Source: an uncultured Gelidibacter sp.
GTDB taxonomy: Bacteria > Bacteroidota > Bacteroidia > Flavobacteriales > Flavobacteriaceae
Assembly: GCF_947500795.1 (NCBI RefSeq)
Contig: NZ_CANMTE010000003.1
Coordinates: forward strand, 124,001 to 188,000
Length of the DNA: 64,000 nt
Reading direction: 5' to 3'
Shown here piece after piece: positions 52,113 to 59,228 of this stretch; position 1 is the first letter of the stretch; each line of letters starts with the position of its first letter. The notes beneath the pieces are model-generated. The model had not been told where the DNA came from. It saw only the letters and a list, made by a program, of their open reading frames with translations, and made no database searches. The translations under genes and the position numbers were made by a program.

Positions 52113-52316
52113 ATGAAAAATTTAATGGAGATTAAAACACACCAAATTAAACTACAAACGCGTTATAAGCAACTTGTTGAACAGGCCTATAACCTCCGTC
52201 AGACTGATCACGCTTTAAGTGATATTTCAGAATATAAAGCGATTAAGCTTTTAAATAAACTGAACCGCCTAAAATATTTAAATAGAGAAGCTTCACGTCC
52301 TAGGACACTTGGATAA
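52113..52316 (+). CDS. Small helical protein, Lacal_2735-like
   Basis: 67 residues (an internal ATG at 52125 would give 63). The core QLVEQAYNLRQTDHALSDISEYKAIKLLNKLNRLK has the spacing of the Lacal_2735 family of small flavobacterial helical proteins (EAY-L--T---SD----A--L---L). It is a paralogue of the next gene. Cytosolic, no signal. Function unknown. Confidence 0.6.
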   Translation: MKNLMEIKTHQIKLQTRYKQLVEQAYNLRQTDHALSDISEYKAIKLLNKLNRLKYLNREASRPRTLG

Positions 52317-52392
52317 TTTACCAAATATTTAACTTTACAAACACATCCTTAAGCGGTTGCACAAACGTATCTATAGTTTAAATCAAATAATT

Positions 52393-52620
52393 ATGAATAC
52401 ACATTTTTGTAAAGTCGGAAAAATTAAATTTAGCCTGAATGAGGTGGTGAATTTAAAAGAAGTAGAAAACAACTATTTAAGATTCACAGAAGAAGCTTAT
52501 AACTTGATACAAACTGATGCAAGTTTAAGTGACTTTTTATACCATGAGGCTTCGAAATTGAGAAAGATTATTTTGAATTTGAAAAACTCTAATTCAAATG
52601 ATGTTGATGTAGCGTTTTAA
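52393..52620 (+). CDS. Small helical protein, paralogue of upstream gene
   Basis: 75 residues from ATG 52393; a frame from 52357 exists but begins with TTG and adds no conserved sequence. The core YLRFTEEAYNLIQTDASLSDFLYHEASKLRKIILNLK aligns with the preceding gene at AYNL-QTD--LSD and A-KL. Its 3' end overlaps the convergent BtuF-like gene by 32 bp. Function unknown. Confidence 0.6.
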   Translation: MNTHFCKVGKIKFSLNEVVNLKEVENNYLRFTEEAYNLIQTDASLSDFLYHEASKLRKIILNLKNSNSNDVDVAF

Positions 52621-54312: not shown

Positions 54313-55389
54313 TTAAATTATATCAGTGTTTGCTTTTAACTTCTGAGTGTTTTCAGCCAATTGAAGCTCGTCAATAATACGCTGTATATCTCCGTTAACG
54401 ATATTTCCTAAATCGTAGAGTGTTAAACCAATTCTATGATCAGTAACACGTCCTTGCGAATAGTTATACGTTCTAATTTTAGCACTTCTATCTCCAGAAG
54501 TCACCATAGAACCACGTTTCTCAGCATCTTCAGCATTTTTCTTTGCAAGTTCCATGTCGTATAAACGTGAACGCAATACTTTAAATGCCTTCTCTTTATT
54601 TTTATGCTGCGATTTTTGATCTTGACATTGCGCTACCAAACCTGTTGGAATATGCGTTAAACGTACTGCAGAATAGGTTGTATTTACAGACTGACCACCT
54701 GGACCTGAAGAACAGAAGAAGTCAATACGCACATCTTTCGGGTTGATTTCTACATCAAACTCTTCAGCTTCCGGGAACACCATCACCGTTGCAGCACTCG
54801 TATGCACACGTCCTTGAGTTTCCGTTTGCGGTACACGTTGTACACGATGCACACCTGCTTCAAACTTTAAAGTTCCGTACACATCATCACCAGAAACCTC
54901 AAATTGAATCTCCTTATAACCACCGTTGGTACCTTCACTATAATCCACTACATCAACTTTCCAACCTTTACTTTCGCAATATTTAGAATACATTCTAAAC
55001 AAATCTCCAGCAAAAATACTCGCCTCATCACCACCTGTACCTGCACGAAGTTCCATAACGGCATTTTTAGTATCCTCAGGATCTCTAGGAATCAACAAGA
55101 AACGGATTTCCTCTTCCAATTTTGGAATACCTTCTTTCGCTTCATCATATTGCATTTTGGCCATTTCCACCATTTCTGGATCGCTGCCATCATCCAAAAT
55201 CTCCTGCGCTTCAGACAAATTGTTAGTCAACTCTAAATATTCCTCGCGCTTATCCATGAGTTTGCGCAATTCTTTATACTCTTTATTTAGTTCAACGTAA
55301 CGCTTTTGATCTGTCATGATATCTGGCTGGATAATTAAATCGCTGACCTCATCAAAACGCTGCTTTATTATTTGTAATTTGTCTAACAT
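54313..55389 (-). CDS. prfA: Peptide chain release factor 1
   Basis: 358 residues from ATG 55389. A longer frame exists from 55461, but the -7 box at 55409-55416 lies inside it, so [15 protein letters not shown] is the start. The GGQ motif is in [25 protein letters not shown]; the RF1 stop-recognition region is [24 protein letters not shown], consistent with an RF1 type (PxT-like PQTETQG) tripeptide anticodon. Recognises UAA and UAG. Confidence 0.96.
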
Positions 55390-55408
55390 GTATGGTTTAA
55401 TTGTGATG

Positions 55409-55416
55409 CAAAAGTA
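55409..55416 (-). promoter_or_regulatory. -7 box TACTTTTG for prfA
   Basis: Exact TAnnTTTG on the minus strand, 19 nt before the chosen prfA start. Confidence 0.6.
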
Positions 55417-55529
55417 CGATAATTTCTTAATTCTAAATAAGGAATTTTCATTACTGACCAAAGAAAAAGAGGATACTGTCGCTAATTGATAAAGATTAAA
55501 CGCAGCCTAAAAACGAGCGATTTATATTA

Positions 55530-55537
55530 TAAATTTG
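55530..55537 (+). promoter_or_regulatory. -7 box TAAATTTG upstream of mini ABC pair
   Basis: Exact TAnnTTTG, 144 nt before the first gene of the mini ABC pair (55682). It is the only box seen in this 220-nt gap. Confidence 0.35.
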
Positions 55538-55681
55538 AAAATGAATCGATAAAATCAAGTCTTATATTAGTTATATTTAACTGAGCAATCCAATTAAACC
55601 ACAGCTGCCACTTAATCTTTTTGATGATTTAGAGGACGATAGTTCACTGAAATAAATAATTAATAAATTCGTTTACGACTT

Positions 55682-55972
55682 ATGATGCAGCGCTTGGGAG
55701 CCATATTTTTATTTTATAAACCATTCTTTTTATGGTCAATGGCGGTCAATATCCTGATCATAATCTTCAATCCGTATATTTTACCAAGCATTATAACGAA
55801 ACTCCTTTTAACCTTATTTGTTTGGTATATGGTCCATGAAACCAGTGCCAAGCGAAAGCTGATCTTTTACAAAAATCTAGGAATTTCAACATGGCGCCTT
55901 TTTTCTACACTTTTTATTATTGATATAGCCATAACAATTACCTTTCTGCTTCTAATGAAAGCGTTTGTATGA
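55682..55972 (+). CDS. Small membrane protein partnered with ABC ATPase
   Basis: 96 residues (starting ATG ATG, so 95 is equally possible). Three hydrophobic helices (about 8-28, 33-50 and 75-94) with a basic loop TSAKRKLIFYKNLG. No recognised family. Its stop overlaps the next gene's start by four bases (ATGA), so the two are translationally coupled. It is much smaller than a normal ABC permease. Confidence 0.72.
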   Translation: MMQRLGAIFLFYKPFFLWSMAVNILIIIFNPYILPSIITKLLLTLFVWYMVHETSAKRKLIFYKNLGISTWRLFSTLFIIDIAITITFLLLMKAFV

Positions 55973-56649
55973 TTATCGAATTGGACAGTGTTGAATTGAA
56001 TTTCAACAGTCGGCGTATTTTAAATGGCGTCTACCTTAAAGCCGAAACCGGGACTATCGTTGGGATTTTAGGACGAAATGGTTCTGGAAAGAGTTGTTTG
56101 TTACAGATTCTGTTTGGCTCCTTACAACCTAAATATAAATTTATAAAGCTTGACGGGAAACCCTTATTAAAACCGTTTTATTCACAAGGCAACATCGTGT
56201 ATTTGCCACAACATGAACTAATCCCAAGTCAGCTGAAAATCAAAACGCTGTTTAGCCTTTTGCAATTGGACTGGAATGAATTTGTAGATTATTTCGAGAA
56301 CTTTTCACAATATTATAATTCGAAAATGAATTCAATTTCGGGAGGAGAACGCCGAGTGATTGAAACTTATGCCGTTTTAAAACAACAGAGTGACATGGTG
56401 TTACTGGACGAACCTTTTTCGAATATTGCGCCATTGTATGTAGAGAAGATAAAACAGCTCATAATAGCTGAAAAATCAACCAAAGCCATAGTAATTACTG
56501 ACCATTATTACAGAGACGTCATCGACATATGCGATACGCTTTATCTATTACAAAATAATTGCACCAAAAAAATCACTGTCCTGGAAGAGCTCGAAGATTA
56601 CAATTATTTGAATATGGATACCTTAAAAACAAAAAAAGGAGGCCATTAG
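55969..56649 (+). CDS. ABC ATPase paired with a 96-residue membrane protein
   Basis: 226 residues. Walker A GRNGSGKSC (about 35-43), Q-loop YLPQHEL, signature NSISGGERRVIETY and Walker B MVLLDEPFSNIAP (about 143-155), where the usual LD after the Walker Glu is altered. The switch region VITDHYYRDVIDICD has the catalytic His. The end of the gene overlaps a terminator. Belongs with the overlapping upstream membrane protein; substrate unknown. Confidence 0.85.
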   Translation: MIIELDSVELNFNSRRILNGVYLKAETGTIVGILGRNGSGKSCLLQILFGSLQPKYKFIKLDGKPLLKPFYSQGNIVYLPQHELIPSQLKIKTLFSLLQLDWNEFVDYFENFSQYYNSKMNSISGGERRVIETYAVLKQQSDMVLLDEPFSNIAPLYVEKIKQLIIAEKSTKAIVITDHYYRDVIDICDTLYLLQNNCTKKITVLEELEDYNYLNMDTLKTKKGGH

Positions 56650-56660
56650 CCTCCTTTTTC
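56638..56660 (+). terminator. Terminator overlapping stop codon of ABC gene
   Basis: Stem GGAGGC / GCCTCC, 5-nt loop, then T5. The TAG stop codon (56647-56649) lies in the loop and right arm. Confidence 0.85.
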
Positions 56661-56675
56661 ATATTCATTAGATGT

Positions 56676-59228
56676 TTATCCGCATTTAGAAGATCCACAA
56701 TCTTTACAGGTTAAACACCCTTCTTGATAAATAAGATTTTCTGAATTACAGTTACTACAAGTCTGTCCTTTTACTTGAGTTCCATCTTCAACATAACGTT
56801 TTAACGCTCTTACTACACCATTTTTCCAAGTGTTGATAGACTCTGTATCCAATTGCAAACTGTTAATTAAGTCTACAATTTTATCAATTGGCATTCCATG
56901 ACGCAATGTACTTGAGATCAATTTAGCATAGTTCCAGTATTCAGGGTCAAACTTATGGGAAAGCCCTTCAATTGTTGTTTTATAGCCTCTGATATTTTTG
57001 TATTGGAAATCATAACGAGAGCTACCATCTTCATTTCTATTTTTAATGATCACACCTTCATTAGCCCAACGCGGAATTAAAATACCATCTTCATCATCAG
57101 CAAGACCAGTGAAGATTTCATAAGGTTTCCCATCGATCAATCCGATAAAGGCAATCCATTTTTCCTTATTATTTTGGAATCTTACCACATCAGCATTTAA
57201 GACTTGAGGACGTTTTGTAGGGAACGTGGTCAACGTGTCGTGCTCTTCTTCTTTCTTTTCGTCATTTGAAATCAACACACCAGATCTTGAACCATCTCTA
57301 TAAACGGTAACACCTTTACAACCTGCTTCCCAAGCTTCCATATACAACTTTCCAACCAACTCTTCAGTCGCGTCGTTTGGCAAGTTGATGGTCACACTGA
57401 TAGAGTGATCTACCCATTTTTGAACCGCACCTTGCATAGACACCTTGCTCATCCAGTCCACATCATTAGATGTTGCTTTGTAATACGGTGATTTTTTAAT
57501 CAACATATCCAATTCTTTCTGACCGTAATTTTTTGTAAGGTCAAAACCATTGACTTCCATCCATTGTTTGAATCGGTGGTGGAATACAACATATTCTTCC
57601 CAAGAATCTCCAACTTCATCCACAAAATCCACACGTATTTCCTTATCGTTAGGATTCACTTTACGACGTCTTTTGTAAACTGGCATAAATACAGGCTCAA
57701 TACCTGAAGAGGTTTGCGTCATCAAACTTGTTGTTCCTGTAGGAGCAATAGTCAATAGTGCAATGTTACGACGACCATATTCGGACATGTCATAATATAA
57801 TTTCTCATCAGCATCTCTTAATCGCTGAATAAACGGATTGTTTTTCTCACGTTCGATATCAAAAAATGCAAAAGCACCACGTTCTTTCGCTAAATCAACT
57901 GACGAACGATATGCAGCAAGTGCTAATGTTTTATGGACTTCAACAGAAAACTCATTGCCTTCTATACTACCATATTGAATGCCCAAAGCAGCCAGCATAT
58001 CACCTTCTGCAGTAATACCAACTCCTGTTCTTCTACCCTCTTCAGCTTTTGTTCTGATATTTACCCAAAGATTTCTCTCAATTGCTTTAACCTCATCTCC
58101 TTCAGGATCTGCATCAATTTTTTGTAAAATACCATCGATTTTCTCTAATTCAAGATCAATAATATCATCCATGATACGCTGTGCATACCCCACGTGTTTT
58201 TTGAAAAGCTCAAAATTGAATTTAGCGTCTTTCGTAAACGGCTGCTCTACATAAGAGAATAAATTGATGGCCAATAATCTACAAGAATCATAAGGACACA
58301 ATGGAATTTCCCCACATGGATTGGTAGAAACCGTTTTATATCCTAAATCAGCGTAACAATCTGGTACCGATTCATTGATAATTGTATCCCAAAATAAGAT
58401 ACCAGGTTCAGCCGATTTCCATGCGTTATGAACGATTTTCTTCCAGATACCATTCGCATCAATCGTTTTTGAAAACTTAGGCTCATCACTGAAAATAGGA
58501 TACTTTTGAGTGTAATGACTGTTGGTTTTAACAGCTCTCATAAAATCGTCATCGATTCTAACAGAAACGTTAGCACCTGTCACTTTCCCCTGCTCTAATT
58601 TCGCATCAATAAAATCTTCAGCATCCGGATGATTAATAGAAACTGACAACATTAATGCACCTCTACGACCATCTTGAGCAACCTCTCTGGTAGAATTTGA
58701 ATAACGCTCCATAAACGGAACAATTCCCGTAGATGTCAATGCCGAATTTTTTACAGGCGAACTTTTTGGACGGATATGTGATAAATCATGGCCCACACCA
58801 CCACGACGTTTCATTAATTGAACTTGCTCCTGATCAATTTTCATTATGCCACCATAAGAATCAGAATTACCAGGATTTCCAATTACGAAACAGTTGGAAA
58901 GCGAAGCAATTTGAAATGGGTTTCCAATCCCTGCCATCGGACTACCTTGCGGGACGATATATTTAAAATCCTTGATCAGGTCAAAAACTTCCTGTTCTGT
59001 CATTGGATTTTCATATTTCGATTCTACACGGGCAATTTCTTTTGCAATTCGCGTATGCATAGCGTTTGGTGTAGATTCATAAATATTACCGTCAGAATCC
59101 TTCAGGGCATATTTATTTAACCAAACTCTTGCAGCCAAATCATCACCTTTGAAGTATTCTAATGCCGCTTCGAAAGCTTCGTCTTGAGTGTAGATAGTTG
59201 TTGGAGAGATAAGAGTGTCAACTTTCAT
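56676..59228 (-). CDS. nrdJ: Adenosylcobalamin-dependent ribonucleotide reductase (class II)
   Basis: 850 residues. The active-site region reads STNPCGEIPLCPYDSCRLLAINL (about 297-319), radical/substrate motif APTGTTSLMTQTSSGIEP, and a Cys-rich end CSNCNSENLIYQEGCLTCKDCGSSKCG typical of class II redox-shuttle tails. Converts ribonucleotides to deoxyribonucleotides with B12. It makes this window contain two B12-dependent enzymes (also icmF). No cobalamin riboswitch or NrdR box was recognised upstream. Confidence 0.93.
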   Translation of the reverse strand: MKVDTLISPTTIYTQDEAFEAALEYFKGDDLAARVWLNKYALKDSDGNIYESTPNAMHTRIAKEIARVESKYENPMTEQEVFDLIKDFKYIVPQGSPMAGIGNPFQIASLSNCFVIGNPGNSDSYGGIMKIDQEQVQLMKRRGGVGHDLSHIRPKSSPVKNSALTSTGIVPFMERYSNSTREVAQDGRRGALMLSVSINHPDAEDFIDAKLEQGKVTGANVSVRIDDDFMRAVKTNSHYTQKYPIFSDEPKFSKTIDANGIWKKIVHNAWKSAEPGILFWDTIINESVPDCYADLGYKTVSTNPCGEIPLCPYDSCRLLAINLFSYVEQPFTKDAKFNFELFKKHVGYAQRIMDDIIDLELEKIDGILQKIDADPEGDEVKAIERNLWVNIRTKAEEGRRTGVGITAEGDMLAALGIQYGSIEGNEFSVEVHKTLALAAYRSSVDLAKERGAFAFFDIEREKNNPFIQRLRDADEKLYYDMSEYGRRNIALLTIAPTGTTSLMTQTSSGIEPVFMPVYKRRRKVNPNDKEIRVDFVDEVGDSWEEYVVFHHRFKQWMEVNGFDLTKNYGQKELDMLIKKSPYYKATSNDVDWMSKVSMQGAVQKWVDHSISVTINLPNDATEELVGKLYMEAWEAGCKGVTVYRDGSRSGVLISNDEKKEEEHDTLTTFPTKRPQVLNADVVRFQNNKEKWIAFIGLIDGKPYEIFTGLADDEDGILIPRWANEGVIIKNRNEDGSSRYDFQYKNIRGYKTTIEGLSHKFDPEYWNYAKLISSTLRHGMPIDKIVDLINSLQLDTESINTWKNGVVRALKRYVEDGTQVKGQTCSNCNSENLIYQEGCLTCKDCGSSKCG

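Follow-up and report, generated by a model that had tools for sequence, protein, structure and literature searches.

A three-helix membrane protein encoded directly before an LptB-related ABC ATPase: a recurring gene pair of the Bacteroidota that may form an unusually small ABC machine

A gene for a 96-residue membrane protein with three predicted transmembrane (TM) helices lies directly before, and overlaps, the gene of an LptB-like ABC ATPase in the Gelidibacter DNA analysed here (a stretch of 64,000 nucleotides, hereafter the window), and the same pair, judged from the counts given below, is a recurring module and not a product of chance. The best explanation would be an ABC machine of two components whose membrane part is unusually small, a reading towards which we incline by a small measure. 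We are considerably more confident that the two proteins form a conserved ABC-type complex, in which the ATPase would dock through a short helix of its small partner. Among the matches listed in open-access literature searches, no report of such a pair of small protein and ABC ATPase was found.

The small gene occupies positions 55682-55972 of the forward strand (ORF list and profile searches) and is followed on the same strand, at 55969-56649, by the gene of the 226-residue ATPase (ORF, Pfam and NCBIfam matches, and model m3142f211c28a). Stop and start codon share the ATGA at 55969-55972, which bears out the four-base overlap between a 96-residue three-helix protein and an ABC ATPase that an earlier note on this DNA had described; the same offset of -3 is also seen in 34 of the 46 paired small genes from Flavobacteriaceae loci. 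The genes prfA and pyrF lie upstream on the opposite strand, and a large ribonucleotide reductase gene converges on the pair from downstream (all three names being read from translations). The common terminator proposed for the pair was found as a forward-strand hairpin at 56633-56659, with 11 pairs followed by T's, which covers the last ATPase codons and the stop; being nearly symmetric, terminator-like on both strands and placed between two convergent genes, it may also serve the convergent downstream gene. The scan of 55380-56800 gave 3 terminator-like sites, against a mean of 0.6 in shuffled sequences, and no plus-strand sigma-70-like site upstream of the pair, a search that is a weak guide for Bacteroidota.

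The ATPase belongs to the ABC superfamily by its match to ABC_tran (PF00005; 70.8 bits, cut-off 25) and by its motifs, all encoded on the forward strand: the Walker A sequence GRNGSGKS (56071-56094), Q81, the signature SGGE (56338-56349), the Walker B segment with its catalytic Glu, VLLDEP (56398-56415), and H179. Over the 57 aligned members of the family (alignment A4), K41, D147, E148 and H179 are present in every row and Q81 in 56, and within the signature S124 and G126 are invariant and G125 occurs in 29 rows. The Walker A and signature motifs named in the earlier note are thus confirmed, and so is its altered segment after the Walker B Glu, which corresponds to the D-loop: it reads SNIAP (56419-56433, forward strand), with Ala154 replacing the usual Asp and an invariant Pro155. 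At this position the 57 rows show Asp in 4, Ala in 20, Ser in 18, Glu in 14 and Thr in 1, so that Asp is replaced in 53; all 20 comparison rows, 10 LptB-type and 10 other ABC ATPases, have it, L328 among them being poorly aligned. The D-loop Asp (SALD) is not a Pfam membership criterion. In the accessible text of one source, the change D674A turns TAP into a nucleotide-gated facilitator without hydrolysis, a change of the D-loop Asp leaves sterol transport by ABCG5/8 unaffected, and a D-loop change to Gly is harmful in MsbA (PMC4242082); because these effects differ, the consequence for the present ATPase cannot be predicted.

The closest known relative in fold and sequence is LptB, which powers the LPS exporter LptB2FG, a type VI system. 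The model of the ATPase has a pLDDT of 95, and the first 12 of the 50 rows listed by Foldseek are LptB or Lpt complexes (LptB2FG being PDB 5x5y, according to the accessible text of PMC8386196). The motifs SGGERR, LLDEPF and ITDH and the D-loop Pro are common to the ATPase and to the genome's own LptB (L311), which scores 368.3 bits against TIGR04406 (cut-off 240). The best NCBIfam match of the ATPase is this same LptB family, but at 105.9 bits it stays under the curated cut-off, and a quick tree places the 57 family rows in a group of their own (97), apart from that of the 10 LptB-type rows (98), of which L311 alone was identified through NCBIfam; 10 further ABC ATPases from the genome fall outside both. 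Moreover, position 86 is Pro in 54 of the 57 family rows, and the window protein has Pro86 and Ser87 where the LptB-type rows have Phe and Arg, which we take to be the groove residues Phe90 and Arg91 of Escherichia coli LptB. Those two residues are described, in the accessible part of PMC5082905, as contacting the coupling helices of LptFG. By profile score and tree position, the ATPase is a relative of LptB and not LptB itself.

The small protein was modelled with AlphaFold2 from 115 relatives (alignment A3), with a mean pLDDT of 85 and a pTM of 0.68, the five models ranging from 85.0 to 66.0. The predicted helices run, in the order TM1-TM2-short helix-TM3, over residues 2-29 (55685-55768, with conserved Y12 and S19), 33-53 (55778-55840), 57-65 and 70-95 (55889-55966), all on the forward strand; the three long ones are also backed by hydropathy. 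This helix prediction refers to the window protein, its relatives being judged by alignment and by eye. The short helix (KRKLIFYKN) together with the following NLGIS, residues 65-69, makes up a coupling-helix-like element at 55850-55888 of the forward strand, so placed by AlphaFold2 and by conservation. Within the motif F-Y-K-N-L-G-I-S, position 65 is Asn in 131 of 152 rows, position 67 is Gly in 140 and position 69 is Ser or Thr in 137; the motif between helices 2 and 3 is in general of the type N-L-G-[IVL]-[ST], and imperfect in some relatives, as in NFQLK (L205) and NLAIS (L202). The arrangement TM1-TM2-short helix-TM3 with N-L-G-I-S looks, in the model, like the layout of an ABC coupling helix.

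Lysine 40, in the middle of TM2 (codon 55799-55801, forward strand), co-occurs with Asp81 in TM3: a Lys or Arg in mid-TM2 and an Asp or Glu at position 81 are both present in 95 rows and both missing in 50, the basic residue stands alone in 7 and the acidic one in none, counts inflated by relatedness and by at least one repeated locus. This co-occurrence suggests that the two residues form a charge pair within the membrane. By the positive-inside rule, a cytoplasmic location of the N-terminus and the short helix is suggested by the basic stretch KRK...YK, which lies between helix 2 and helix 3. Hardly any of the protein projects from the membrane, with three residues linking helix 1 to helix 2 and about one beyond helix 3. 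Searches for known relatives gave no Pfam family for the window protein at E<=1 and nothing at E<=1 in a sequence profile search of the PDB; a PDB fold search with the model returned a single, meaningless match (E 9.4), and PADLOC left the small protein unmatched and gave P-loop-type matches for the ATPase. Among 115 small proteins, Pfam and NCBIfam produced scattered weak matches, each in one or two members, FtsX being matched by 2 (best E 0.0054).

The co-occurrence of the two genes, which the earlier note had proposed as a check, was followed from the genus to the phylum. The small gene is present in all 9 Gelidibacter genomes, with an unbroken ATPase gene downstream in 7; the other two carry broken copies, with an early stop in G. 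salicanalis IC162 (L002/L028) and a frame break in G. gilvus (L004/L032). A query with the small protein matched 26 of 59 genomes at E<=0.1 (its own included, as well as all 8 other Gelidibacter), the weakest few at chance level, and a 20-sequence profile (A1) located the gene at 90 places in 88 of 299 Flavobacteriaceae genomes, again with its own. Eighty fetched stretches, covering 81 of these 90 places, together with L001, L027 and L031 amount to 83 loci with 84 small genes: a family ATPase lies within 700 bases downstream of 46 (L107 being counted twice and the ATPase of L099 being split over two frames), a partial one follows 2, cut by the contig end in L063 and decayed in L126, and 36 have none. 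Most of these loci adjoin prfA, and 79 of the 83 gave a PrfA long enough for a tree; the small genes of L135 and L136 sit elsewhere.

Searching from the side of the ATPase, a 44-row profile (A2) found, in the 299 Flavobacteriaceae genomes, 47 places at 279-373 bits, 51 at 155-244 bits (a figure that leaves out a broken copy in G081), and a third level of many places at 146 bits or less, mostly in frames of 240-280 residues and including LptB. A short hydrophobic protein, mostly of 87-110 residues, is encoded just upstream in all 40 fetched ATPase loci (38 of the middle level and 2 of the top level), 32 of these proteins being found by a motif script and 8 read by eye; three of the latter (L178, L184 and L185) have no standard start codon giving 60 residues. 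With L135 and L136, 40 of the 51 middle-level places were covered, and pairs of this level are mostly sited away from prfA. An hhalign comparison shows the small proteins of both groups to be homologous (98.3%, 1.5e-14, 101 columns), the first set including L135 and L136, which are of the second kind. In 395 genomes of Bacteroidota, a 57-row profile (A4) gave 41 places above 165 bits, distributed over Flavobacteriaceae (the window included), one further family of the order, several of the class, and three genomes outside the class; five of the places (L267, L268, L269, L277 and L281) are loci already counted in Flavobacteriaceae. All 41 ATPases have a short hydrophobic protein upstream; the small-protein profile matches 38 of these proteins at E<=1 and leaves those of L305 and L306 unmatched, and the small gene of L269 (genome G187, also fetched as L080) lies about 100 bases upstream. 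Two lower-scoring ATPases, L308 (160 bits) and L309 (158 bits), had no small partner. Finally, two small genes stand in tandem before one ATPase gene in G198 (L107:4992-5648), and also in L153; the outer copy of L107 has the motif KMVGVSN, like some relatives that lack the ATPase. Such tandem genes would suit a heterodimer.

The possibility that the short protein is a truncation, which a full-length permease gene beside the ATPase of relatives would have indicated, was followed up in 93 loci with a family ATPase above 150 bits. A same-strand ORF of more than 150 residues starts within 300 bases downstream in 23 of them (25 such ORFs in total), and 8 of these ORFs have two or more hydrophobic stretches: two sodium:sulfate symporters, an MBOAT protein, a cation efflux protein and four without a Pfam match, none of the 8 falling in an ABC permease family of Pfam. 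Among 4073 ORFs of at least 60 residues from the fetched loci and the window, the small-protein profile matched none longer than 160 residues at E<=1. A truncated permease is ruled out by this result and by the short upstream proteins of 40 out of 40 and 41 out of 41 loci, with one reserve: in L167 and L168, of one genus, the ATPase gene is followed, after 13-15 bases, by that of a 340-residue protein (L167:3660-4679 and L168:3658-4677), which has 5-6 hydrophobic stretches, is unmatched in Pfam and is a possible third member of the module in that genus. The comparison of sequences indicates that a short membrane protein is the rule in this family and not a truncation. As a separate observation, the pair follows a gene of about 900 residues, with the visible part YYSEDMYPGGNFQYNKDPN or similar, in L167, L168, L171, L174, L188, L189, L190 and L204, a conserved neighbour in one branch.

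The 36 small genes without a downstream ATPase allow the contribution of the two partners to be considered apart. The best PrfA+PyrF tree (79 loci, 77 scored) requires 21 switches between presence and absence of the ATPase, and supported branches alone require at least 8; with a shuffled mean of 25.4 changes, presence is barely clustered. Gains and losses cannot be told apart on the tree itself, but loss is indicated by the fixed site and by the broken ATPase copies: decay of the ATPase beside an intact small gene is seen in L126, L002 and L004. No ATPase remnant was found within 1.5 kb downstream of the 36 genes (43 stretches were searched and 7 matched, all of them paired, cut or broken loci). 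Assuming that both searches covered the same 299 genomes, a top-level ATPase is absent from 35 of the 36 genomes in which a small gene lacks the ATPase; the remaining one, G022, has such an ATPase on a different contig, where a second small gene (L016) adjoins it, and five (G115, G123, G168, G184 and G225) each have a middle-level ATPase with a small partner of its own.

Paired and ATPase-less small proteins differ mainly in the coupling-helix-like region. Mean entropy over residues 54-69 is 1.92 in the 36 ATPase-less small proteins, versus 1.04 in 34 close paired ones and 1.37 in all 46 paired ones, the close set leaving out 12 divergent paired genes. The corresponding values are 1.63, 1.62 and 1.99 for TM1, 1.77, 1.70 and 2.16 for TM2, and 1.79, 1.53 and 1.95 for TM3, which is slightly less conserved without the ATPase than in the close paired set. 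At the level of single residues, N65 is kept in 43 of 43 paired versus 16 of 34 ATPase-less rows and F62 in 41 versus 20, and the membrane residues K40 (43 and 34), D81 (41 and 34) and W18 (27 and 34) are present in all 34 ATPase-less rows. In 8 independent pairs on supported branches, retention of at least 5 of 6 motif residues went with the ATPase in 5.7 and against it in 0.0 (averages), and the TM control (at least 10 of 12 residues) in 0.2 and 1.9, respectively; sign tests gave a median p of 0.03 to 0.06 for three motif measures, with motif positions picked after the entropy data had been seen. Mann-Whitney tests, which ignore relatedness, gave p 5e-9 for the six motif residues and 0.02, in the opposite direction, for the twelve TM residues.

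The small protein is nevertheless retained. Pooled pN/pS is 0.21 in 7 ATPase-less pairs versus 0.25 in 6 paired ones, synonymous sites being near saturation in some pairs and L002, with its broken ATPase, being counted as paired; departure from neutrality is significant in each of the 7 (Fisher p 3e-4 to 2.5e-31), a clear signature, as far as codon comparison goes, of purifying selection on ATPase-less small genes. The drift of the short helix could also reflect adaptation to another ATPase.

In its number of helices the small protein stands apart from the ABC systems compared here. In the accessible part of the 2020 classification, MacB has 4+4 helices, MlaE five per half, type I systems 5-6 (or 8), and types V and VI 6+6 (PMC8386196), so that the requirement of about six helices per half, from which the earlier note had argued, is too strict, as MacB and MlaE illustrate; three per half is still lower, below every count found in that part of the classification (4 to 6, or 8). 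In layout the small protein resembles LptF and LptG, whose first half has the same order TM1-TM2-coupling helix-TM3, with the coupling helix before TM3, according to the accessible part of PMC5082905. A motif of the G-[IV]-S type follows the coupling helix in most aligned rows of LptF/LptG, as in the small protein. By register, LptF Glu84 corresponds to position 59, which is acidic in 39 of 111 small-protein members and Lys in the window protein. Charge co-variation between this position and ATPase position 87, the analogue of LptF Glu84 and LptB Arg91, ranked 80th of 226 columns, not above clade structure. LptF and LptG differ in having six helices against three, and profile comparison gave no match (about 1% or less); they carry a beta-jellyroll, and the small protein has none. 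The stretch around the short helix also resembles that of FtsX (ERTREIGVRKALGAKKKTI), a type VII protein, without significance (hhalign 0.1-0.7%), and the 4+4 helices of MacB compare with three here. FtsX and MacB subunits have a large periplasmic domain, which the small protein lacks. The idea that the small protein is homologous to FtsX or to the first half of LptF/G was thus set aside, since profiles gave it no support and the likeness is one of layout. Type VII includes signal-transmitting ABC machines, according to the accessible part of PMC11627006, and by analogy the nearest functional counterparts may be FtsEX-like signal transmitters.

Taken together, these data are compatible with a machine that would work as follows. 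Two ATPases would pair as the usual sandwich, each holding one small protein by its short helix, so that the assembly would count 3+3 helices, a stoichiometry that we favour slightly. The short helix would most simply be the docking site because it lies in the right place, is most conserved with the ATPase and drifts without it. Binding and release of ATP would swing the short helices and so rearrange the helix bundle, and, since hardly any of the small protein projects from the membrane, the output would have to take effect within it, the likeliest targets being lipids or an adjacent membrane protein. In this view the small protein would be the effector, driven or regulated by an ATPase that is optional, as the maintenance of the small protein under selection without the ATPase suggests; for this division of roles the chances appear evenly balanced. 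Since the rest of the protein would act without the ATPase, and inside the bilayer, an effector with an optional motor is favoured over a classical pump, and the loss of the usual D-loop Asp is no less compatible with a gate or switch than with a pump. The broadest version, a new ABC fold with three helices per half, one fewer than in type VII, across Bacteroidota and with an ATP-independent membrane function and an optional, repeatedly lost ATPase as its driver or switch, is a tentative proposal to which we give somewhat less than an even chance.

Other readings share part of this evidence. A miniature transporter, in which a 3+3 dimer would extrude or flip a lipid or a small hydrophobic compound like a shrunken LptB2FG or MacB pump, agrees with the closeness of the ATPase to LptB (in the first 12 of 50 listed fold rows and in the NCBIfam ranking), with a catalytic Glu and His kept in 57 of 57 rows and with the coupling-helix layout; we regard it as unlikely, though the most serious of the rivals, given the missing extracytoplasmic domain, the Asp replaced in 53 of 57 D-loops, the 36 of 84 small genes without an ATPase and the varied genomic contexts, whose partly identified neighbours suggest no common substrate. 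Less probable still is that the small protein serves, as adaptor or anchor, to recruit the ATPase to a full-size permease whose gene lies elsewhere. It is true that the small protein shows no obvious pathway, that the Gelidibacter genome, with 47 ABC_tran matches, has other ABC-type membrane proteins (2 LptF/G and 9 FtsX-domain matches), and that the 340-residue protein adjoins the ATPase in L167 and L168; but the pairing holds at varied genomic sites, the 23 of 93 loci with a close same-strand ORF of more than 150 residues revealed no recognised ABC permease among the 8 hydrophobic ones scanned, and the small protein itself has a coupling-helix-like layout and survives without the ATPase. Of the three readings left by the earlier note, multimerisation of the membrane protein is thus favoured by the coupling-helix-like element and the distant permease disfavoured by the pairing at varied sites, and a role other than transport has become likelier, since some loci retain a small protein under selection where no ATPase accompanies it.

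The solitary small genes (36 of 84) would also be expected if the two proteins were functionally separate and merely co-transcribed, a reading made very improbable by the drift of the short helix where the ATPase is missing and by the lack of any family ATPase without a partner in the loci examined (40 of the 51 middle-level places). That the small protein is what is left of a normal permease, by truncation or decay, is hardly credible: the short length and the decay of the ATPase partner in some species are all that could be cited for it, against a length mostly of about 87-110 residues, purifying selection, homologues across families of the class and no long ORF with a profile match.

Regarded as a two-component machine, the family would represent an unusually small ABC membrane part that recurs across Bacteroidota directly before an LptB-related ATPase. 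Membrane folds are the basis on which ABC complexes are classified, and one made of three helices, with a single coupling helix, would show how small the membrane component of an ABC motor can be. With about 320 residues per half, it would make a handy model for coupling, and the loci that naturally lack the ATPase, where the coupling-helix region drifts and the rest is conserved, offer a ready test of the contribution of the motor.

Elsewhere in the window, two adjoining short ORFs of 67 and 87 residues (52113-52620) have the motif AYNLxQTDxxLSD in common and are apparently tandem paralogues.
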